Assembly (NCBI GenBank): GCA_002479245.1
Contig: DLMG01000017.1
Span: 1-14,112, forward strand
DNA from: Verrucomicrobia subdivision 3 bacterium UBA7542
GTDB lineage: Bacteria > Verrucomicrobiota > Verrucomicrobiia > Limisphaerales > UBA11358
DNA length: 14,112 nucleotides
Reading direction: 5' to 3'
Below the pieces are notes generated by a model. That model was given only the letters and a program-made list of their open reading frames with translations, made no database searches and was not told the DNA's origin. Shown one piece after another: positions 3,067 through 14,112 of the stretch; the stretch's first letter is position 1; each line of letters starts with the position of its first letter. The position numbers and the translations under genes are program-made.

Positions 3067-3149
3067 TCCTGGGAGCGCCGGCGTCTCGCCGGCAAGTGGT
3101 TCAGTCTGCCGCAAGACGCCAAGCCGGCGGGATGCCGGCGCTCCCAGGA
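3067..3149. repeat. Paired-hairpin (REP/BIME-like) intergenic element, copy A
   Basis: Two 27-nt arms, 3067-3093 and 3123-3149, are inverted copies of each other (25 of 27 positions match) separated by 29 nt. Each arm is also a hairpin by itself: gccggcg-tct-cgccggc at 3077-3093, and gccggcg-gga-tgccggc at 3123-3139 (one G-T pair). The outer stretch tcctgggagc pairs only between the two arms. The element can therefore form either two small hairpins or one long cruciform. It sits 15 bp after the transpeptidase stop and ends 86 bp before lemA, so in RNA it could limit read-through or stabilise the upstream message. It shares its 17-nt core and loop sequences with the element inside pheT at 13133-13205. 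Confidence 0.85.
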
Positions 3150-3235
3150 ACCTGATTCCAAAAAGACGGCCAAATTATCATTGCCGGGTGGCTGGCTTTG
3201 GCCTAATTGTTTGGCAAATTCAACAAAGGATATTT

Positions 3236-3841
3236 ATGGCCATCGGAATTGGACTGATTATCGCCTTAGTGGTGCTGGTTTGCGCGCTGGGACTCATTGC
3301 TTTTGTCATCGGCGTTTATAACAAACTCGTCACGATGCGCAACCGCTACAAAAATGCCTACGCGCAAATTGACGTGCAGCTCAAGCGCCGCTACGACCTG
3401 ATCCCGAACCTGGTCGAGATTGCCAAGGGCTACATCAAGCACGAACGCGAGACGCTGGAAAATGTCACCAAGGCGCGCAACATCGCCTACGCCGCCTCGC
3501 AGGCCGCCGCCGCCAATCCGGGCGACGCCAGTGCCATGAAAAATCTCGTCTCCGCCGAAAGCGGCCTGGCCGGCACGTTGAGCCGCCTGATGATGGTTTC
3601 CGAACAATACCCCGATTTGAAGGCCAACCAGAATATGATGCAACTCACCGAGGAACTGACCTCCACGGAAAACAAAATCTCCTTCGCGCGGCAGGCTTAC
3701 AACGACTCCGTCATGGTTTATAACACCGACCGCGAAGTGTTTCCGAGCAACCTCATCGCCGGCATGTTCAACTTCGGCCCGGCGGAACTGTTTGTCGTTG
3801 ACAAGCCGGAGCAGAAGGATGCGCCCAAAGTCTCCTTTTAG
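3236..3841 (+). CDS. lemA: LemA family protein
   Basis: A 201-aa LemA-family membrane protein. An N-terminal hydrophobic segment (about residues 4-27, 'IGLIIALVVLVCALGLIAF') leads straight into the family signature 'VYNKLVTMRNRYKNAYAQIDVQLKRRYDLIPNLVEIAKGY', followed by the helical bundle ('HERETLENVTKARNIA', 'ENKISFARQAYNDSVMVYN') and the closing 'FPSNLIAGMFNF' motif. The start is ATG 3236, with aaagga at 3225-3230 five nt upstream; an upstream in-frame extension to 3188 lacks this support. LemA proteins have an N-out/C-in helical fold and no catalytic residues. They are often next to M48 proteases, as here, which suggests a shared role in envelope protein quality control. The molecular function is unknown. 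Confidence 0.95.
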   Translation: MAIGIGLIIALVVLVCALGLIAFVIGVYNKLVTMRNRYKNAYAQIDVQLKRRYDLIPNLVEIAKGYIKHERETLENVTKARNIAYAASQAAAANPGDASAMKNLVSAESGLAGTLSRLMMVSEQYPDLKANQNMMQLTEELTSTENKISFARQAYNDSVMVYNTDREVFPSNLIAGMFNFGPAELFVVDKPEQKDAPKVSF

Positions 3842-3850
3842 TAAATCACA

Positions 3851-3977
3851 TGTAGCAGCCGACGTGAGGAGGCTCGAATTTATTTACGATATTGGATTTA
3901 CGATTGACGAGTCTCGCTACCATCCAGGCACATCACGTAAATCGGAAAGAGTGAGCCTCGTTACCTCGGCTGCTACA
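3851..3977. repeat. 127-bp MITE-like element with 25-bp terminal inverted repeats between lemA and the M48 protease gene
   Basis: The terminal arms 3851-3875 (starting tgtagcagccgacgtgag) and 3953-3977 (ending acctcggctgctaca) are inverted copies matching at 22 of 25 positions. The 77-bp interior is AT-richer than the surrounding genes and has its own short complementary pieces (atttacg and cgtaaat; gacgagtctcg). It has no coding capacity. It begins 9 bp after the lemA stop and ends 10 bp before the protease ATG, so it fills almost the whole spacer of what is normally a tight lemA-M48 pair. I see no clear target-site duplication. The arms do not match the other paired-hairpin elements in the window. 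Confidence 0.85.
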
Positions 3978-3987
3978 AAAAATTCAA

Positions 3988-5961
3988 ATGGACTTCTTCG
4001 AGCGACAGGACAAAGCCAGAAAAAAGACCAAACTACTCGTTTTTTATTTCATCCTCGCGGTTGCGGCGCTCATCGTCGCCGTGTATTTCGCCGCGTTGCT
4101 GATTTTTTCCGGCGTTCAGGCGCAACAGCATCGTAATTTCGGCGAATCGCCGCAGTTCGCGCTTTGGAATCCGCAACTGTTTCTTGGCGTCGCCGGCGGT
4201 GTGCTGGCGGTCGTTCTCATCGGCAGCGGTTACAAGACCGTGGCGCTTGCCCAGGGCGGCAGCGCGGTTTCGGAAATGATGGGCGCGCGGCTCGTCAGCC
4301 CGAACACGAATGATCCCGACGAACGCAAACTGCTCAATGTCGTCGAGGAAATGGCCATCGCCTCCGGCGTCCCCGTGCCGCACGTCTATGTCATGGACGA
4401 GGAGGACGGCATCAACGCCTTCGCCGCCGGCCACAAACCCGGCGACGCGACCATCACCGTGACGCGCGGCTGCGTAAAAATTTTGTCACGCGACGAATTA
4501 CAGGGCGTCATCGGCCACGAATTCAGCCACATTTTGAACGGCGACATGCGGCTGAACCTCCGGCTTATGGGCATCATCTTTGGCATCCTTTGCCTCGCCA
4601 TCATCGGACGGGTTCTTTTGCAAACGGCGCGCGTCGGCGGGCGCGGGCGCGGACAAAATCCGTTGCCCCTGCTCGGTTTGTTGCTGCTCGTCATCGGCTA
4701 CATCGGCGTTTTTTTTGGACGCCTCATTCAGGCCGCTGTCAGCCGCCAGCGTGAATTTCTCGCCGACGCCTCGTCCGTCCAATTCACGCGCAATCCGGGA
4801 GGCATCACCGGCGCGCTGAAAAAAATCGGCGGCCTGGGCGAAACGGGTTCGCGCCTCAGCCACGCGCACGCCGAGGAACTTTCTCACATGTTTTTTGGAA
4901 ACGGCGTCAGCGAACCGTTCATCGGCCTGCTTGAAACCCATCCGCCACTCGCGGAACGCATCCGTGTTTTTGACCCGAATTTCGATGGAAAATTTCCCTA
5001 CGTTCGTTACGACGGACGCGACCGGCCGCCTGAAGAAATTTCAAAACTGAAACGCCCGCCAATGCCGAACCTTTTCGGCACGATGCTGGGCGGCGCGATC
5101 CTCGCTTCGGGCGACGCGGAAAAACCACCGGTCATCAGATCGCATTCCGTCCTGCCAAGTCTGGGCAATCCCACGCCGCTGCATCTCAAATACGCCGGGC
5201 AACTGCGCGATTCGCTGCCCGACAACGTAAAAGCCGCCGCGCGCGAACCGCTGGATGCCGTTGCACTGATTTACGCGATGCTGCTCAGTCCGGACGAAAC
5301 GGTGCGCATGACGCAACTCGCCGAACTGGCCAAACGGATTGATCCGGCAATTCAGGAAAAAACCATTGCGTTGTTTCCCGATGTTTTGACCGCCGCGACG
5401 CACGCGCATTTGCCGATCATCAATCTCGCGTTGGGCGCGTTGCGGCAGTTGCGCGCGGAGCAGTTTAATCAATTTTCGCAGACACTCCAATGGCTCATCG
5501 AAAGCGACGGCAAGATCGAGCTGTTTGAATTCGTGCTGCAAAAAATTGTTCTCCGCCATCTCACGCCGCAATTCACCGGGGCGCGTCCGCCGGTCGCCCA
5601 ATACTACACGCTCAAGCCGCTCGTGCCGGATTGCGCCGTCGTGCTGTCGGCGCTCGCCAACGTCGGCAGCAGCGATGCCGGCGAAATCGAAAAGGCCTTT
5701 GAAACCGGGGCGCCGTATCTGCGCGCGCCCAACGACGGCGATCTGACGCTGCTGCCACGCGAACAATGCGGCGTGGACCAGATTGACGCCGCGCTCAACC
5801 GCCTGGCGCTGGCCGTGCCGACCATCAAAAAGAATTTGATTGAAGCCTGCGTCCATACGGTCGGCGCCGATGGCGTGATGACAGAAAGCGAGGCCGAACT
5901 GCTCCGGGCCGTCGCCGACACGCTGGATTGCCCCATCCCGCCGTTCGTCCAGACGGAATAG
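3988..5961 (+). CDS. M48 family (HtpX-like) membrane zinc metalloprotease with C-terminal TerB-like extension
   Basis: A 657-aa integral membrane protease. Predicted membrane segments lie near residues 16-42, 63-85, 192-212 and 226-250. Zinc ligands and catalytic glutamate are in H-E-F-S-H (H177, E178, H181), and the third ligand is E256 in 'SRQREFLADA'. 'NAFAAGHKPGDATITVTRGCVKILSRDELQGVIGHE' is typical M48. HtpX-type enzymes (about 290 aa) degrade damaged membrane proteins on the cytoplasmic side. This one carries a further ~330 residues after 'THPPLAERIRVFDP'. The last ~50 ('IEACVHTVGADGVMTESEAELLRAVADTL') resemble a TerB-like domain, as in other long M48 proteins. No Shine-Dalgarno precedes ATG 3988, and the MITE-like element sits directly upstream, so translation may depend on coupling or on RNA folding. 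It pairs with LemA. E. coli HtpX lacks the extension, so I do not use the symbol. Confidence 0.92.
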   Translation: MDFFERQDKARKKTKLLVFYFILAVAALIVAVYFAALLIFSGVQAQQHRNFGESPQFALWNPQLFLGVAGGVLAVVLIGSGYKTVALAQGGSAVSEMMGARLVSPNTNDPDERKLLNVVEEMAIASGVPVPHVYVMDEEDGINAFAAGHKPGDATITVTRGCVKILSRDELQGVIGHEFSHILNGDMRLNLRLMGIIFGILCLAIIGRVLLQTARVGGRGRGQNPLPLLGLLLLVIGYIGVFFGRLIQAAVSRQREFLADASSVQFTRNPGGITGALKKIGGLGETGSRLSHAHAEELSHMFFGNGVSEPFIGLLETHPPLAERIRVFDPNFDGKFPYVRYDGRDRPPEEISKLKRPPMPNLFGTMLGGAILASGDAEKPPVIRSHSVLPSLGNPTPLHLKYAGQLRDSLPDNVKAAAREPLDAVALIYAMLLSPDETVRMTQLAELAKRIDPAIQEKTIALFPDVLTAATHAHLPIINLALGALRQLRAEQFNQFSQTLQWLIESDGKIELFEFVLQKIVLRHLTPQFTGARPPVAQYYTLKPLVPDCAVVLSALANVGSSDAGEIEKAFETGAPYLRAPNDGDLTLLPREQCGVDQIDAALNRLALAVPTIKKNLIEACVHTVGADGVMTESEAELLRAVADTLDCPIPPFVQTE

Positions 5962-7840: not shown

Positions 7841-9115
7841 TTACTCAAAACGCGCGGGTTGTCCAGTGGTGGCCAGCACTGCGTGCCAGATGGAGCCGTT
7901 GGGATCCACACGCTTTTCCTGTTTCGCCAGCATTTCAATGGGCACATGGATGAAGTGGTCATGCAGCAACCCAATCACCAGCCCGGTCTTGCCCGCCATC
8001 GCGGCATGCACGGCATGGCGGGCATATTGGTCGCATAGGATCGCGTCTTCCGCATCGGCGGGCACGCTCCGGATGATGTAGCTCGGTTCCAGGTAACGCA
8101 TCACCACGGGAATTTTTTCTGCCCGGAAGTAAGACTCGATCTTTTCGCGGAGGAACGGGCCGATGTCCCTGAGTTTGACGTTCCCCGAAGCGTCACGTTC
8201 CGCGCCTTTGTTTTCCAGCAGGTCCTGTCCGGTGCCTTCAGCCACCACGATGACTGCGTGTGCCCGTTTCAACGTGCGTTTCTTCAGCGCGTTGAGAAAC
8301 CCGCCTTCGCCTTCCAGCTTGAACGGAATTTCCGGGATCAGACAAAAGTTCACCTCCTGGCTGGACACCGTGGCTTCCGCGGCGATGAACCCGGCGTGCC
8401 GTCCCATCAATTTTACCAGGGCGATGCCGTTCTGGACGCTGTGAACCTCCGTGTGGGCGCAGGTAATGACCCGGGTCGCTTCCTGCACCGCTGTCTGGTA
8501 ACCAAACGTGCGTGAAACATACGGCACGTCGTTGTCAACGGTCTTCGGAATGCCCACGACCGCCAGCACATGACCGCGCTTTTGTGCCTCCTGAAAAAGC
8601 TTATAACCACCGTGTTGCGTGCCGTCGCCGCCGACGACGAACAGGATGTTCACATCGCGTTTGATGAGATTGTCCACCGCTCGGCTGATGTCCACCGGGC
8701 CGCGCGATGTGCCGAGGACCGTGCCGCCTTCCTTGTGGATGTCGTCCACGAGGTCGGGGTTGAGCACGATTGGCTCCAATCCGCTCGCCGGATCAAGTCC
8801 GTGATAACCATCGCGGAAGCCCAGCACTTGTTTCACGCCGTAGGTATGGTGCAGTTCCAAGAAGGCGGAGCGGATGACGGTATTCATGCCGGGACAAAGT
8901 CCACCGCAGGTGACAATGCCGGCACGAGTGTCTTTGGGATCGAAGAAAAGTTTTTCGCGCGGGCCGGCCATCTCGAAAAGTAGTTCCTCCGGTGGCGTGA
9001 CGCCCGGCGTCCGCACAATTTGCAACGGTATGTGTGCCTCGTCACTGACTGAGTGTCGAATCGGCGACGCGAAGCGGCCCGGGCCGAGCAAGGTGATGTT
9101 CGTTGAGCTATTCAC
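7841..9115 (-). CDS. 6-phosphofructokinase, plant-type ATP-PFK group
   Basis: A 424-aa phosphofructokinase converting fructose 6-phosphate to fructose 1,6-bisphosphate in glycolysis. It resembles the long plant/protist-type ATP-PFKs: an N-terminal extension ('LLGPGRFASPI', 'FEMAGPREKLFFDP') precedes 'AGIVTCGGLCPGMNTVIR'. Key sites are G-G-D-G-T (162-166), P-K-T-V-D-N-D (190-196, catalytic D194), M-G-R (237-239) and 'IPEIPF' (E262). Glycine at 165 (E. coli G104) points to ATP, while lysine at 191 (E. coli G124) is the residue found in PPi enzymes and in plant ATP-PFKs. The start is GTG 9115. The open frame continues to 9190, but that part is antisense-free remnant pheT DNA, and the family's N-terminus ('..LG..rf.SPl') begins right after 9115. 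The start codon overlaps the stop of that pheT remnant. ATP use is an inference. Confidence 0.9.
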   Translation of the reverse strand: MNSSTNITLLGPGRFASPIRHSVSDEAHIPLQIVRTPGVTPPEELLFEMAGPREKLFFDPKDTRAGIVTCGGLCPGMNTVIRSAFLELHHTYGVKQVLGFRDGYHGLDPASGLEPIVLNPDLVDDIHKEGGTVLGTSRGPVDISRAVDNLIKRDVNILFVVGGDGTQHGGYKLFQEAQKRGHVLAVVGIPKTVDNDVPYVSRTFGYQTAVQEATRVITCAHTEVHSVQNGIALVKLMGRHAGFIAAEATVSSQEVNFCLIPEIPFKLEGEGGFLNALKKRTLKRAHAVIVVAEGTGQDLLENKGAERDASGNVKLRDIGPFLREKIESYFRAEKIPVVMRYLEPSYIIRSVPADAEDAILCDQYARHAVHAAMAGKTGLVIGLLHDHFIHVPIEMLAKQEKRVDPNGSIWHAVLATTGQPARFE

Positions 9116-9165
9116 GCACCGTTGCCTGTAATTGTGACTTGAACGCCTCCACAATTTTCGTGTGC
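9108..9165 (-). pseudogene. Remnant copy of the 3' end of pheT
   Basis: Bases 9109-9165 match 12494-12550, the 3' end of pheT, at 53 of 57 positions (mismatches at 9114, 9117, 9153, 9157; constant offset 3385). Read on the - strand it encodes 'HTKIVEAFKSQLQATVRE' and a TAG stop at 9110-9108, against 'HTTIVEAFKSQLQATVRE' and TAA in the intact gene. Beyond about 9165 similarity fades, with possible weak similarity to about 9185. The PFK start GTG (9115-9113) lies inside this remnant in another frame. No other part of pheT is present here. Confidence 0.9.
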
Positions 9166-9208: not shown

Positions 9209-12200
9209 TCATTCGTCCGCAGTATTTGCGGCCTGGTTGCCAAGCAACTCCTGGGCGGCACGAACAAATCCATTTTGGCCGATTGCCTTGCCCGGGGTGA
9301 TGTTTTCCTCCAGTTCCTGCGACCTAAAACGGTATTCCATATCCCGGTCTTGTTCGCTGGCTTGCGCCGCCTGCTTTTCAACTTGTGCCTTGCTGGCCGG
9401 CAACGGATAAAGACTTTCGGGCTTGGCCGGGCGCTTCCCGGCGGCGATGGCAACATTGCTCCAGAGCGCGGCCAGATCGGAGACATTCTCAAACGACGGA
9501 TGGGTGTGCCGGCCCAGCGGATCCAGTCGAAGCAGATTGAAAACCACGGCGTCGCGTTCCGGCGCGGGTTGGAAAACATGAGAACTGATGCCTTCGATTT
9601 TGACCCAGGCATTGAGATAATCCGGATCCAGTCTGACCGCCGCGTGATAATTGGTCAGCGCCTCCGGATAACGCCCTTCATCTTCCCGCAGATAGCCGAG
9701 CAGATAATGCACCTGCGGCTTGTTCGGCGTTTTTTGGGCCAGTTCGGTGAACACCTTTTCGGCAATGCCTTGCGCCCGTTCACCATCAAACGCGCGCTCG
9801 CACCCGAAACAATAACTCTCCATGCGGCCAAACTGGTCGGGCATCAATTCGTAGGCGCGACGGTAATGTTCCTCCGCCTGCTGGTGCAATCCCATGTCCG
9901 ACAGTTGCACGGCCAGCCGCGCATGGATGCAATAGGCGTCCGCAAAACGGTTTAATGAATCCTGATACATGGCCACGGCCCGTTTGAGCAGGCCGGCGGC
10001 ATGAAATTGGTCGGCTAATTCCGCTTGATGCACGGATTGAACAACGCCACGCAAAGTTGCTGCCTCATTGGTGTCGCCCCGGGCGGCGCGGATCTCTGCC
10101 AGTTCGACATAGGCGCGGATGCGGTCGCCGGGACCTTCCTCGCCATCCGTGGGATCAATGGTAATGGCCTGGCGGGCGGCTTGTTCGGCTTCCGCCAAAT
10201 GCTGGTGGGTGCGTAGCCAGTGTGCCTTCCAGATCAACGGTCGTTCCTCGAACTGGTCCCGCGCAAACAAAGCATCCAGTTCGGCCGGGACGTTTTCATC
10301 ATCCAATGAGAGCAGCAATTCATAAAGTCGGTCGCAGCCGGGGGACTGATCGAACAGTGGGTTGAGCAGTTTGCGCGCCTCTGCTGTGTGTCCGGTTTTG
10401 GCCAGCGCTGCGGCGGCGTAATAGCCCACCGGCACGATGACGGGCTGGTGGGAATAATTCGGAACCATATCTTCCAGTTCGGCAAACCGGGAGTTCAAAT
10501 CAGCCAGGTCTTTTACGCCCCAGTACGGTGCATCATCAAATAATTTCAGTACGTCCGCATCCCGTCCGGCACGGTGATAAAGCCGGGCCAGCGATGTCAG
10601 AATTTGAGTGGCGGGAGTGGAGCGTCCTTCGTAACCGTACATTCGCGGGTCGGCCTTCTTCGAGACGGCGTTGGACAAGGCTGTGGCCAGAACCATTTCC
10701 GCCTCCGGTCCCCGGTTAAGATCTTCCAAAAGCGTCGCCAGCGACGGCGCTGTGGTGTTTCTCCATGGATAATAATCCTGTTCATCCGGTTTTTGAACAG
10801 CCGCCTTGGCGGCAGTGATGCCTTCCTCCAGCCATTCAGGACGATTGAGGAGGTGGCCGATTTGCGCCAACTTCAGTGCCAGATCGCTGCGGCTTTCACG
10901 CTCGTAGCGAGCCGAGGCTGAAACCGGTTCATTGGTTTGCATCAAGCGGCGAAGTTCAGTCACACCGGCCTCAACTTCATCGTTGGCGAGCAATGCCTGG
11001 TACAACAATTGTTGCAGATGCAGCCGTTGGCCCTTGCTCAGGCCGGGCTTGGAAATGGCCGACTGGACCAGCTTGACCATTTCCGCGGTTTGACCCGCGT
11101 GCGCCGCCACCTGCACATACTCCTCCCAAAAAGGCAGACCCGGATTTTGCTGCAACAGTTCATGGAAAAAACCATTGAGCTGGCCGGCGAAACCGGCGCG
11201 TTCCATCTGCCGGACGGCTTCATTCGGGAAGTAAGCGTCGTTTTCCTTCTCAAATTGTCTGGCCACCGCCACGGCATCAGTCGTGCGTTCATGGGCAATC
11301 AGGCCAAGCAGATAATAAATCTGGGCGCTCTTCTTTTCATAGTCGCCGGAAGCCTCGGTCGGAAGCGGCATTGAAGGCATGTCGGAAGCGGCTGCCGGGG
11401 GCTCATTGGTTTCGGGTTTGGCAAAGCGTTTGTCCATCGCTTCATACAAGTCAACCGACTCCAGCGAATTGACCAGCGACCACTGTGGTGTTTTTAATTC
11501 CTTGACCAATTCCAGCGCCAGTTTCTGCGCCAGCTTGTCGGTGGCTGTGCCGGCATCAATACTTATTTGGGCTGTGGATTTGACCAGGGCGCGCCGGAGA
11601 AATGCCTCGGCTTTTTCCGGTCCGACCAGCGGAACGAGGTCCGGGACTTGAAGACTGGATTGATAACGATAGCCTTCCCCGGATTGTTGGGCTGCCAGTT
11701 TCCGGTCCAAGGCCTGTAGCACGGCATCGGGATTGTCCATTGTGGCCATCAGGGAACTGCTTAGTTCCTCAAACAGGGAATTGTAAAAGTAGGCCTGCCG
11801 GGTTTTGGCCTTGGCGGCGAGGGCTTCCAAGGCGGCGATGTCTTCCCGCCGCTTGGTCGTGTCACTCAGAAGGGTGTGAGCCAGCAGCCGCAAGCCAAGC
11901 TTTTGCAACGACTGAGCGCCTTCGCCCGCCGGACGCGCTTCGATGGCCTTGCCCAGTTCCGGCCAACTGGAAGGCGGAGGCAGCGCCTCGACCAATTCCT
12001 CCGGTTGAATGGGATGGGACATCCCGCCCTGTTGGCCATAATTGGCGGGCGTCTCATTCAGTTGCAGCAGGCGATCCACCAGTGCCAGCCATTGTTTCGC
12101 CGCTTCGGCCGGCGCCAGGCTGGCGGACTGTTGCTTGAAAGCCTTCAAATCTTCGCGCAGTTGTGACGTCGGCGATGGTTTTTCCTCCTTCGATTTCGGT

Positions 12201-12352
12201 TGGTTGCTGCCTTCTGCCGCCTGACGAAGAATGGCATCAGCCCCCTCATAATTGGTTGCCGACGCCGCTTCCGCCGTTGTGGTCCAAACCCAGGCGCCCG
12301 CCATACACAACACGACACTGGCAACGATATTGCGGCAGGTTTTGATGTTCAT
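9209..12352 (-). CDS. Large exported TPR-repeat protein of unknown function
   Basis: A 1047-aa protein. The N-terminus 'MNIKTCRNIVASVVLCMAGAWVW' followed by 'TTAEAAS' looks like a Sec signal peptide with cleavage after A-E-A (about 29/30). The next ~80 residues are low-complexity and charged ('QPKSKEEKPSP'). The rest is helical-repeat sequence with many A/L/E-rich pairs typical of tetratricopeptide repeats. The clearest TPRs are C-terminal: 'HLAEAEQAARQAITIDPTD', 'GLHQQAEEHYRRAYELMPDQ', 'GRYPEALTNYHAAVRLDPDY'. No catalytic domain is recognised. A C-F-G-C pair (C848, C851) lies between two TPRs. ATG 12352 is preferred over the upstream start at 12421, because it gives the signal peptide, has ggaac about 7-11 nt upstream, and the longer form would overlap the promoter at 12393-12421. 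Such proteins usually scaffold envelope complexes. The gene is bracketed by two copies of the pheT 3' end. Confidence 0.88.
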   Translation of the reverse strand: MNIKTCRNIVASVVLCMAGAWVWTTTAEAASATNYEGADAILRQAAEGSNQPKSKEEKPSPTSQLREDLKAFKQQSASLAPAEAAKQWLALVDRLLQLNETPANYGQQGGMSHPIQPEELVEALPPPSSWPELGKAIEARPAGEGAQSLQKLGLRLLAHTLLSDTTKRREDIAALEALAAKAKTRQAYFYNSLFEELSSSLMATMDNPDAVLQALDRKLAAQQSGEGYRYQSSLQVPDLVPLVGPEKAEAFLRRALVKSTAQISIDAGTATDKLAQKLALELVKELKTPQWSLVNSLESVDLYEAMDKRFAKPETNEPPAAASDMPSMPLPTEASGDYEKKSAQIYYLLGLIAHERTTDAVAVARQFEKENDAYFPNEAVRQMERAGFAGQLNGFFHELLQQNPGLPFWEEYVQVAAHAGQTAEMVKLVQSAISKPGLSKGQRLHLQQLLYQALLANDEVEAGVTELRRLMQTNEPVSASARYERESRSDLALKLAQIGHLLNRPEWLEEGITAAKAAVQKPDEQDYYPWRNTTAPSLATLLEDLNRGPEAEMVLATALSNAVSKKADPRMYGYEGRSTPATQILTSLARLYHRAGRDADVLKLFDDAPYWGVKDLADLNSRFAELEDMVPNYSHQPVIVPVGYYAAAALAKTGHTAEARKLLNPLFDQSPGCDRLYELLLSLDDENVPAELDALFARDQFEERPLIWKAHWLRTHQHLAEAEQAARQAITIDPTDGEEGPGDRIRAYVELAEIRAARGDTNEAATLRGVVQSVHQAELADQFHAAGLLKRAVAMYQDSLNRFADAYCIHARLAVQLSDMGLHQQAEEHYRRAYELMPDQFGRMESYCFGCERAFDGERAQGIAEKVFTELAQKTPNKPQVHYLLGYLREDEGRYPEALTNYHAAVRLDPDYLNAWVKIEGISSHVFQPAPERDAVVFNLLRLDPLGRHTHPSFENVSDLAALWSNVAIAAGKRPAKPESLYPLPASKAQVEKQAAQASEQDRDMEYRFRSQELEENITPGKAIGQNGFVRAAQELLGNQAANTADE

Positions 12353-12392
12353 AAGTGTTCCATTTGTGGGTTGTAATTGAATGTGTAAAATC

Positions 12393-12421
12393 CTTATAGC
12401 TCTTGGAGAAATGACTTTCAA
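12393..12421 (-). promoter_or_regulatory. Sigma70-type promoter of the TPR protein gene
   Basis: On the - strand, TTGAAA (12421-12416; 5 of 6 to TTGACA) and TATAAG (12398-12393; 5 of 6 to TATAAT) are separated by exactly 17 nt. Transcription would begin near 12386, giving a leader of about 34 nt before ATG 12352. The position between the pheT stop and the TPR start fits an independent transcription unit. Confidence 0.65.
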
Positions 12422-12492
12422 CCAAGATTTTGCAGGATGCCGGCAATCCGCGCGTCATGCCTGCCGGTCGTCGCCACGTTAAAACGGTTGGT

Positions 12493-14112
12493 TTATTCCC
12501 GTACCGTTGCCTGTAATTGTGACTTGAACGCCTCCACGATTGTCGTGTGCGCCGCGTTCGCCTCGGCGTCGGTCAGCGTTTTGTCCTCGGCGCGGTAGGT
12601 GAAGGCGTAGGCCAGGCTCTTTTGGCCTTCGGGAACGTTTTTGCCGCGAAACACGTCGAACAATTCCACCGCTTCCAGGTTCGCCGGTTTGGTCTGCTTC
12701 ACCACCTGCAAAACGGCGTCGTGTGTCGTGGCTTCGGGCACAATCATCGCCACGTCCCGGCGAATGGCGGGAAACGCGGGCAAAGGCTTGAATGACTTGG
12801 CCGGATTGCGCCGCGCCAGCAGCAAATCCAGATTCAATTCCGCCAGCAGCACGGTGTCGCGCAAATCATATTTCTTCGCCAGCGCGGGTAGCAATTGACC
12901 GAACTCGCCGAGCGTTTGCTTGCCGAGTTGAATCGTGGCCGATTCGAGAAACAACGCGGTGCTTTCCGCCTGACGCGTGAACGCCATACCGCGCAGACCG
13001 AATTGCTCAAAAAATTCCTCCAGCACACCTTTCAAATCAGATGCGTCAAATTTCGCGTCACGTTCGTTGCCGCTCCAGAAGGGCAGGGCACGCTGGCCGG
13101 TGAGAGCGATGGCCACGCGACGTTCTTCCTTGAACGTGCTGCCAGCATCTTGCTGGCAGGATTGTTTTCTAGTTTGATCTGCCGGCGGGACGCCGGCAGC
13201 ACGTTGGAACACCCGCCCGACTTCAAACAAAGCCACATCGTAATTTTTGCGGCTGATGTTGTGCCGCAACGAATGAATCAGGCCGGGCAACAGACTCGGA
13301 CGGAGCACGTCCATGTCCGAACTCAACGGATTCGCCAGCGCCACTGTTTCCGAACTTGATACTCGACACTCGGCACTCGACACGAGCGTCTGCCCCTGCG
13401 CTTCATTCAAGCCCAGCCCGCTCAAAATCCGCCGTGCTTCCGCCAGGACGTCGTGCGTCGCGTCGAATGCGTTCGTGCCAATCGCGCCGCGCGGCGGTGT
13501 GGCCGGAATTTTGTCCACGCCATGCAGGCGGCCGACTTCTTCGATCAAATCCGCCTCGCGTTTCAAGTCCACGCGGAACGTCGGGATTTGAAACGTCACC
13601 GGTTCCGGCGCGGCGTTTGTGCCGGTTGGCCGCGCCTTGCGACCGATGGTTTTCAAGCCAAGCTGGCCGAGGTAAAACTCAATTTCTTCAGGTCGAAGCT
13701 CAATGCCGAGCAATTCGTTCACCTTGTGATGCCGCAGCGTGATTTCCTTTGGTTTGACCGGTTTCGGATAGGCGTCCACGACACCTTCGGCCAACTGGCC
13801 GCCGGCGGTTTCGAGAATCAATTGCGCACAACGCGCGCCGGCCCAGTCGTTGATGTCAATGTCCGCGCCGCGCTCGAAACGATAGCTGGCATCGGTGCGC
13901 AGTCCCAGTATCTTGCTCGTGCGGCGGATGTTCGTGGGCGAGAAATAGGCGCTCTCGATGAGTACGTCCACGGTGTTGTCCTTGATCTCGGAATTCTGCC
14001 CGCCCATGACGCCGGCCAGCGCGATGCCTTTTTCTTCGTCGGCAATGAGCAGGTTCTCAGTGGTGAGCTTGTGTTTCTGGCCGTCGAGCGTGATGAACTC
14101 CTCGCCGGCCTT
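12493..14112 (-). CDS. pheT: Phenylalanyl-tRNA synthetase beta subunit (5' end outside window)
   Basis: 539 C-terminal residues of PheT, whose full length is usually about 800. With PheS it charges tRNA-Phe in the cytosol. The frame runs off the window at 14112. The visible part begins in the B3/B4 editing region ('FITLDGQKHKL..NLLIADEEKGIALAGVMGGQNSEI', 'SYRFERGADI'). It continues through B5 (about 116-205, 'FRVDLKREADLIEEVGRLHGVDKI'), the catalytic-like core ('VALANPLSSDMDVLRPSLLPGLI', 'DVALFEVGRVF') and the FDX-ACB anticodon-binding domain (about 441-539, 'FPAIRRDVAMIVPEA', ending 'SQLQATVRE'). Two oddities interrupt the core: about 25 residues encoded by a paired-hairpin element (visible residues 303-328, after 'GRVF'), and a Ser-rich insert encoded by a 7-bp tandem repeat just before 'VALANP'. 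Both keep the frame, so the gene appears functional. pheS is not in the window. Confidence 0.96.
   Translation of the reverse strand, partial: KAGEEFITLDGQKHKLTTENLLIADEEKGIALAGVMGGQNSEIKDNTVDVLIESAYFSPTNIRRTSKILGLRTDASYRFERGADIDINDWAGARCAQLILETAGGQLAEGVVDAYPKPVKPKEITLRHHKVNELLGIELRPEEIEFYLGQLGLKTIGRKARPTGTNAAPEPVTFQIPTFRVDLKREADLIEEVGRLHGVDKIPATPPRGAIGTNAFDATHDVLAEARRILSGLGLNEAQGQTLVSSAECRVSSSETVALANPLSSDMDVLRPSLLPGLIHSLRHNISRKNYDVALFEVGRVFQRAAGVPPADQTRKQSCQQDAGSTFKEERRVAIALTGQRALPFWSGNERDAKFDASDLKGVLEEFFEQFGLRGMAFTRQAESTALFLESATIQLGKQTLGEFGQLLPALAKKYDLRDTVLLAELNLDLLLARRNPAKSFKPLPAFPAIRRDVAMIVPEATTHDAVLQVVKQTKPANLEAVELFDVFRGKNVPEGQKSLAYAFTYRAEDKTLTDAEANAAHTTIVEAFKSQLQATVRE
12494..12550 (-). 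repeat. Direct repeat: parental copy in the pheT 3' end
   Basis: This is the other member of the ~57-bp direct repeat described at 9109-9165 (53 of 57 identical). Here it is the intact end of pheT. The two copies lie in the same orientation 3385 bp apart, with only the TPR gene and its promoter between them. Confidence 0.9.
13133..13205. repeat. Paired-hairpin (REP/BIME-like) element inserted in frame in pheT, copy D
   Basis: Arms 13133-13159 and 13179-13205 (27 nt each) are inverted copies matching at 22 of 27 positions, with a 19-nt AT-rich spacer. Each folds alone into a perfect 9-bp hairpin: ctgccagca-tct-tgctggcag at 13139-13159, and ctgccggcg-gga-cgccggcag at 13179-13199. Four of the five differences between arms are two compensatory pairs, so both stems stay perfect; the fifth is in the loop. 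On the coding (-) strand the element reads 'QRAAGVPPADQTRKQ' then 'SCQQDAGSTF', with no stop. Other PheT proteins go almost straight from 'GRVF' to the 'EERRVAIAL' strand, so this is an insertion in the protein. The loops and 17-nt core match the element at 3067-3149. Confidence 0.88.
13361..13381. repeat. Three 7-bp tandem units inside pheT
   Basis: Three head-to-tail units, actcgac, actcggc and actcgac (13361-13367, 13368-13374, 13375-13381), are followed by a partial unit. On the coding strand they supply most of the peptide 'SSAECRVSSSE' between 'GQTLVS' and 'VALANP'. 21 bp equals seven codons, so the frame is kept. This position is a variable loop in PheT. Confidence 0.6.

Follow-up and report, generated by a model that had tools for sequence, protein, structure and literature searches.

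How an essential gene can carry a strong palindromic insert and remain readable is the question raised by pheT of Verrucomicrobia subdivision 3 bacterium UBA7542. The window analysed here, the whole stretch of 14,112 nt at positions 1–14112 of contig DLMG01000017.1, encodes the C-terminal 539 residues of PheT (12493–14112, minus strand), and the gene is interrupted at 13133–13205 by a paired-hairpin element. The best explanation, to which we assign a probability of about 77%, is that the insert is a REPIN-like repeat of about 40 copies, placed by a RAYT-like HUH/Y1 transposase and translated as a tolerated disordered loop. Copy number, anatomy, reading frame, absence from related species and the occurrence of different inserts at this site were all observed directly.

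A paired-hairpin element in the CLM domain of PheT

The 73-bp element is present as the earlier note claimed and is made up of two inverted arms of 27 nt each, 81% complementary and 19 nt apart (inverted-repeat scan). Arms and spacer have no assigned strand; in plus-strand writing, the first arm (13133–13159) consists of the foot AACGTG and the hairpin CTGCCAGC-ATCTT-GCTGGCAG, and its ends recur in other copies. It is followed by a 19-nt spacer between the two hairpins (13160–13178), which varies in length and sequence among copies, and by the inverted second arm (13179–13205), composed of the hairpin CTGCCGGC-GGGAC-GCCGGCAG and the foot CACGTT. Each arm is a hairpin in itself, with an AACGTG foot. 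The predicted fold of the element region has an energy of −48.9 kcal/mol, compared with −31.0 kcal/mol for shuffled sequences (z = −6.06; none of 200 dinucleotide shuffles folded as well). An Rfam scan of the window gave no family reaching its gathering score, and a strict pattern for the second hairpin returned zero matches, the flank of the hairpin not fitting the pattern. In the pheT frame, on the minus strand, the whole REPIN-like element (13133–13205) encodes QRAAGVPPADQTRKQSCQQDAGSTF, with end codons common to the flanks.

The open frame at 12493–14112 runs through the element, in agreement with the proposed in-frame insertion into an essential gene, and matches four PheT domains in Pfam (B3/4 in part, B5, CLM and FDX-ACB), the element falling within the CLM domain. 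The contig ends inside the gene, and the N-terminal part lies on another contig of the source genome (C94 of G000). The full-length protein (P0001) has 879 unbroken residues and scores 757.7 bits against the bacterial PheT model TIGR00472. There is one PheT locus in the genome, and three further matches are confined to short segments at the insert and fall within other genes; the gene is thus not the second, non-functional copy whose existence would have weakened the earlier note's proposal. A second A-type copy, as we call the family of this element, occupies the part of pheT encoding the B3/4 domain (C94:53–125, outside the window).

Between the conserved GRVF and EERR motifs this PheT has 26 residues, compared with about 8 in relatives without the insert. 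The net gain is therefore about 18 residues (+54 nt relative to the 24-nt loop of relatives), and about 19 nt of the older loop were apparently replaced by the element; of the earlier estimate of about 25 residues added before EERRVAIAL, the in-frame insertion stands and the size does not. In the AlphaFold model the insert lies between two strands (residues 634–644 and 667–678), with pLDDT below 50 at residues 652–665, and is predicted to be a disordered loop, consistent with the surface-loop site anticipated from the sequence.

Two further features of the pheT region were observed. A tandem-like stretch, ACTCGACACTCGGCACTCGACAC, at 13361–13383 encodes the peptide SSAECRVSSSE in another PheT loop; in sister species, loops of MetH, RsmB and RecJ are likewise filled by short tandem stretches. 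A 64-nt direct repeat (89% identity) of the pheT 3′ end, at 9102–9165 and 12487–12550, flanks a single open reading frame of 1,070 residues (9209–12421), as if this frame had entered beside pheT together with a copy of the pheT end.

Copies of the family lie in frame within conserved genes

A BLAST search of the element against its own genome (E up to 10, with matches merged by eye) gave 79 high-scoring pairs that reduce to 40 places, at all of which the best E value is 5.4e-4 or lower; of 86 first-look candidates, 40 were scored. Both arms were matched at 31 of the 40 places and one arm only at the other 9. A GCCGGC-hairpin pattern with one mismatch allowed, which also takes in a sister repeat type, found 97 sites, compared with 0 for the reversed control. 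Most of the 27 copies printed have sharp AACGTG...CACGTT ends, with spacers that differ between copies.

Counting the two arms around a transposase in priA as one site reduces the 40 places to 39 distinct sites. At 31 of these the element lies in an open frame within a conserved gene, as judged from the longest open frame through the element and Pfam matches; 6 sites are between or at the ends of open reading frames on the frame map, and 2 have no assignment. Because a copy was scored as intragenic only if its frame was open, the independent evidence on frame is the absence of out-of-frame copies: no assigned copy among the 39 sites breaks a gene out of frame. The source genome is a 70% complete draft, with masked N within some frames.

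The host genes, named in short form from our reading of Pfam matches, include those for the aminoacyl-tRNA synthetases PheT (two sites), PheS, ValS, IleRS (two sites), ProRS and a class II synthetase, and those for PriA (two sites, of which one holds the transposase), TopA, RecJ, LigA, DnaE and DnaG. Further hosts are an ArgD-like aminotransferase, a class I aminotransferase, MetH, GcvP, PurL, GlmS, a pyrimidine phosphorylase and a molybdopterin dehydrogenase. The remaining copies are in a PAD-type deiminase, TsaD, a U32 peptidase (two sites), a DUF255 protein, RsmB, HypF and ClpB. In the case of PurL, TsaD, the DUF255 protein and one of the U32 sites, it is conservation in sister species that supports the second flank. 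The PheS and GlmS copies, in which one hairpin was matched, may belong to the sister repeat type. Other proteins of the genome thus contain the insert peptide, as the earlier note had expected. The family provides a natural insertion scan of which loops in dozens of core proteins tolerate foreign peptides.

Paired hairpins of other kinds also occur in the window. One, of a different family, lies between open reading frames at 3067–3149, with arms TCCTGGGAGCGCCGGCGTCTCGCCGGC that are 93% complementary; the foot CTGGGAGC is common to this pair and to the GlmS insert (L144). A third inverted pair, TGTAGCAGCCGACGTGAGGAGGCTC, at 3851–3977 between the frames 3188–3841 and 3988–5961, has arms that are 88% complementary and 77 nt apart, with a GTAG-like foot.

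Reading frame and selection within the inserts

Translated in its three frames, the first arm gives QRAAG.., NVLPAS.. or TCCRRPAG... Use of these frames in the 31 intragenic copies is strongly skewed, with 24 in the QRAAG frame, 6 in the NVLPAS frame, none in the TCCRR frame and 1 (PheS) unclassified (chi-square p = 1.7e-7); excluding single-arm copies leaves 18:6:0 (p = 2.8e-5). The TCCRR frame is unused although it is open in many copies. Relative to sister species lacking the A insert, all 13 comparisons, drawn from 9 genes, show a net length difference divisible by 3; these are the 9 of 25 host genes picked for having an A-insert-free sister. Sister alleles are open across the site in 45 of the 47 fetched, and the two not counted as open (TsaD and PurL of the sister species G002) contain N.

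In eight inserts common to the source genome and the sister species G005, 214 insert codons contain 25 synonymous and 30 nonsynonymous changes, giving a pN/pS of 0.41 compared with 0.12 in the flanks. Such a relaxed but still lowered ratio is as expected of translated sequence and counts against removal at the RNA level. The element might otherwise be excised before or during translation, as a small intron or through ribosomal bypassing of the mRNA hairpin, so that the protein lacks the insert. Bypassing of mRNA hairpins by ribosomes is familiar from mitochondrial byp elements, and a strong hairpin inside essential genes would suit it. Were the element removed, the frame would not have to be kept; out-of-frame insertions in genes are nevertheless absent among the assigned copies, and both the net lengths in multiples of 3 (13 of 13) and the 24:6:0 skew in frame use speak against removal. 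We regard removal as very improbable; on the sequence evidence, the inserts are likely to be translated as tolerated protein loops.

Synonymous divergence is lower in the shared inserts (pS = 0.154) than in their flanks (0.311), hinting at nucleotide-level constraint or at conversion between copies. Constraint of this kind would be compatible with co-option, in which the loop or the mRNA hairpin is now useful to PheRS, for example in regulation or binding. Against this stand the unrelated inserts or short loops of relatives at the same site, the presence of the same insert in unrelated proteins and the relaxed pN/pS, and we consider co-option unlikely.

The pheT loop is a hotspot for several repeat families

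If all relatives shared these residues, the insertion proposed in the earlier note would be in doubt. Among the 120 PheT relatives listed, out of 7,385, 27 have this insert (A) and 93 have other states: 22 B, 19 C, 19 short B-like, 17 D, 11 E, 3 C2 and 2 other loops, one of 14 residues and one an 8-residue form. The labels were assigned by regular expression, and the D and E inserts are known from protein sequence only. At least five insert types occur at this site in close relatives, one of which (Limisphaerales bacterium bog_1418) has a PheT 88% identical to that of the source genome; distant relatives have mostly a loop of about 8 residues, such as TNVNGQTK. The B insert of G005 has a GTAG foot and the C insert of G002 a GTGG foot, and both types recur elsewhere in their own genome and in other genomes of the genus. 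Because relatives carry several insert types or a short loop here, the pheT site can be called a hotspot.

With the loop excluded, a tree of the PheT core requires 48 changes of insert label, the least possible being 7, and 14 for the A label alone; by a quick method, well-supported branches force at least 8 changes for the A label. A PheT alignment (A1) comprised 24 of 28 near-full PheT sequences from 38 loci and 14 of the 120 database proteins. Homologous recombination may explain part of the 48 state changes. It is a serious possibility, to which we give somewhat less than even odds, that alleles at this site were spread mainly by recombination and that fresh insertion is rare, a view partly compatible with the REPIN-like explanation. 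The A label changes 14 times on the tree, yet its peptide is near-constant. Genome G011 (PheT identity 69%) carries an A insert at this very position, and at E 1e-5 nothing else in that genome matches A. Recombination leaves unexplained the first arrival of three or more families at the same codons.

Similar turnover is seen at other host sites. When 25 of these were searched in two sister species, the A insert was common to G005 at 8 of 24 sites and to G002 at 0 of 23; the remaining alleles have either a short loop or another insert, and several of these look repeat-like by eye. In ClpB of G002 (C41, L276), a Y1_Tnp domain lies within an open frame of 1,137 residues, at a position where the source genome and G005 have half an A repeat. 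The pattern suggests that part of the length variation of core proteins in bacteria is built by mobile repeats.

A RAYT-like transposase between family A arms inside PriA

The source genome contains 12 Y1_Tnp matches; when these loci were scanned, one of the 12 proved to be flanked by A arms. These arms (L275) are inverted, 31 nt long, 87% complementary and 703 nt apart, and the whole transposase unit lies in frame within a PriA of 1,041 residues, just before the Walker A motif. The Y1_Tnp domain scores 29.2 bits (cut-off 23). Against the NCBIfam model of REP-associated transposases, NF047646, the domain scores 62.2 bits, under the cut-off of 80, and is therefore named 'RAYT-like'; it also weakly matches the solved TnpA-REP structure 4er8 (E = 6e-5). 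The predicted structure has a well-folded RAYT domain and disordered repeat-encoded linkers. A DinG-like helicase of the same genome (G000:C272; L126, L274) similarly contains an in-frame RAYT-like domain, here between perfect C-type arms, and the corresponding site in G005 has an A-type insert instead (L132).

Inteins are selfish nuclease-like domains lodged in frame in conserved DNA-processing proteins. The PriA fusion shares the in-frame position in such a protein, here beside Walker A, and differs in that its insert is predicted to be retained. Pfam searches of the fusion and of related inserts gave no splicing or intein domain, and protein splicing of the insert was set aside on this ground.

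Judging by their arms, which form terminal inverted repeats with 81% complementarity, the elements might instead be MITEs of a DDE transposon and not REP doublets moved by a RAYT-like enzyme. Neither target duplication nor target motif was seen by eye in the printed copies and the sister comparisons, each arm is itself a hairpin, and the same arms bracket a Y1_Tnp gene; a MITE origin is accordingly improbable in our estimate. Where the sister has a short loop (six sites), insertion apparently removed 17–36 nt, a point against the REPIN-like explanation in that plain IS200-type insertion would have no such effect. The arrangement of arms and gene makes it likely that the priA-borne transposase moves the family A repeats.

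We infer that the elements are mobile and that those in genes are translated. The transposase would recognize both hairpins as single-stranded DNA and spread copies widely through the genome, and gene-breaking copies would be purged. Copies in variable loops that keep the frame would persist, since the frames in use run through the arms with no stop codon. The transposase unit, itself in frame inside priA between inverted arms of the same family, would persist together with the repeat as part of essential proteins, since loss would need precise deletion. Variable loops would serve as landing pads, refilled repeatedly by different repeat families.

Relation to known palindromic repeats

The Rickettsia palindromic elements to which the insert was first compared were reportedly described by Ogata in 2000 and 2002. 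The likeness holds for the manner of insertion, whereas the anatomy is closer to the REPIN/RAYT system. The Rickettsia elements (PMC10969869) also lie in frame in many unrelated genes. They measure about 150 bp, compared with 73 bp here, and belong to different bacteria.

Intragenic REPs are already known from Opitutus and Rickettsia. The accessible text of PMC3733652 reports palindromic REPs, often dimers, in frame in conserved genes of Opitutus terrae and other bacteria; as here, many of the genes concerned act in DNA replication and repair, and a member of the Verrucomicrobia is among the hosts. Those REPs have GTAG or CGTC tags and are, in the same text, mostly intergenic, whereas family A has AACGTG ends and 31 of its 39 sites are intragenic; neither tag is present in the A-type foot (AACGTG in most printed copies). 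The CGTC repeats, whose Rickettsia counterparts are RPE-4 and RPE-6, are described there as having no associated transposase genes, different REPs at about the same site are given only for recB of two Xanthomonas species, and the text as available reports no transposase gene inside a host protein.

In the portions available of PMC3116915, PMC2817692 and PMC8266576, REPINs are inverted hairpin pairs with a variable spacer, and RAYTs are Y1/HUH genes flanked by two inverted copies, both as found here. The GT(A/G)G head of RAYT repeats described in these sources fits the GTGG foot of the C type and not the AACGTG foot of the A type. REPINs are mostly extragenic in these accounts: the most abundant 16-mers of P. 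fluorescens occur 1,067 times, of which only 14 overlap genes (PMC3116915). With 31 of 39 sites intragenic, we use the label 'REPIN-like' only, and the total of 40 places is modest compared with Pseudomonas. The RAYT gene here is fused in frame into PriA, unlike the RAYTs these sources describe. REPs are named for being extragenic; this family is found mainly inside conserved genes and is apparently translated.

PriA–RAYT fusions in relatives and databases

A query with the RAYT part, restricted to proteins of at least about 570 residues, matched 1,742 proteins, and a DinG-based query matched 2,139, with 120 listed for each. PriA–RAYT fusions, identified by regular expression, account for 52 of the 120 matches listed for the RAYT part, the source genome's own among them. 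The HUH motif is kept in all 52 and the Tyr motif in 51 by regular expression (P0155 reads YTQENP), and 33 of the 52 have A-like repeat peptides on both sides of the RAYT part. In an alignment of 46 fusions (A2; six shorter ones were left out), both His residues, the Tyr and Walker A are invariant.

Within the genus, 30 PriA loci from a set of 49 genomes were read. Four loci have a Pfam-supported Y1_Tnp domain at this point (G000, G018, G016 and G008, the last just at the cut-off), and 25 have loops without a HUH-like motif, including those of G005 and G017. Although a HUH-like motif is present in the PriA insert of G002, Pfam gave no Y1_Tnp match there at 0.001, and this insert was not counted as a transposase. 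G005 and G017 have 19 and 4 A matches, respectively, and empty PriA sites, so the idea that the A family everywhere owes its presence to a PriA-borne RAYT does not hold cleanly: in these genomes the repeats persist without one, or another transposase serves.

In the available part of PMC6006769, TnpA_Y1 proteins longer than expected were set aside as annotation errors or fused genes. The literature searched yielded no report of a transposase within an essential helicase, of a RAYT inside PriA or DinG, or of turnover of several repeat families at one protein site. We give about even odds to the broader proposal that REP/RAYT systems of Limisphaerales lead an intein-like life without splicing, in which repeats and active transposases are permanent, translated parts of essential proteins such as PriA, DinG and ClpB, guarded from deletion, and loops are shared landing pads where families replace one another. 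A transposase gene housed in a replication-restart helicase would be hard to lose, a possible answer to the persistence of low-copy RAYT genes.

In a further genome of the 49, G014, a single open frame contains two PriA matches separated by about 790 nt. Other listed long proteins with RAYT-like regions (P0121–P0324) contain RecG, MetH and carbamoyl-phosphate synthase domains, and further ones contain alanyl-tRNA synthetase, D-3-phosphoglycerate dehydrogenase and restriction enzyme domains.
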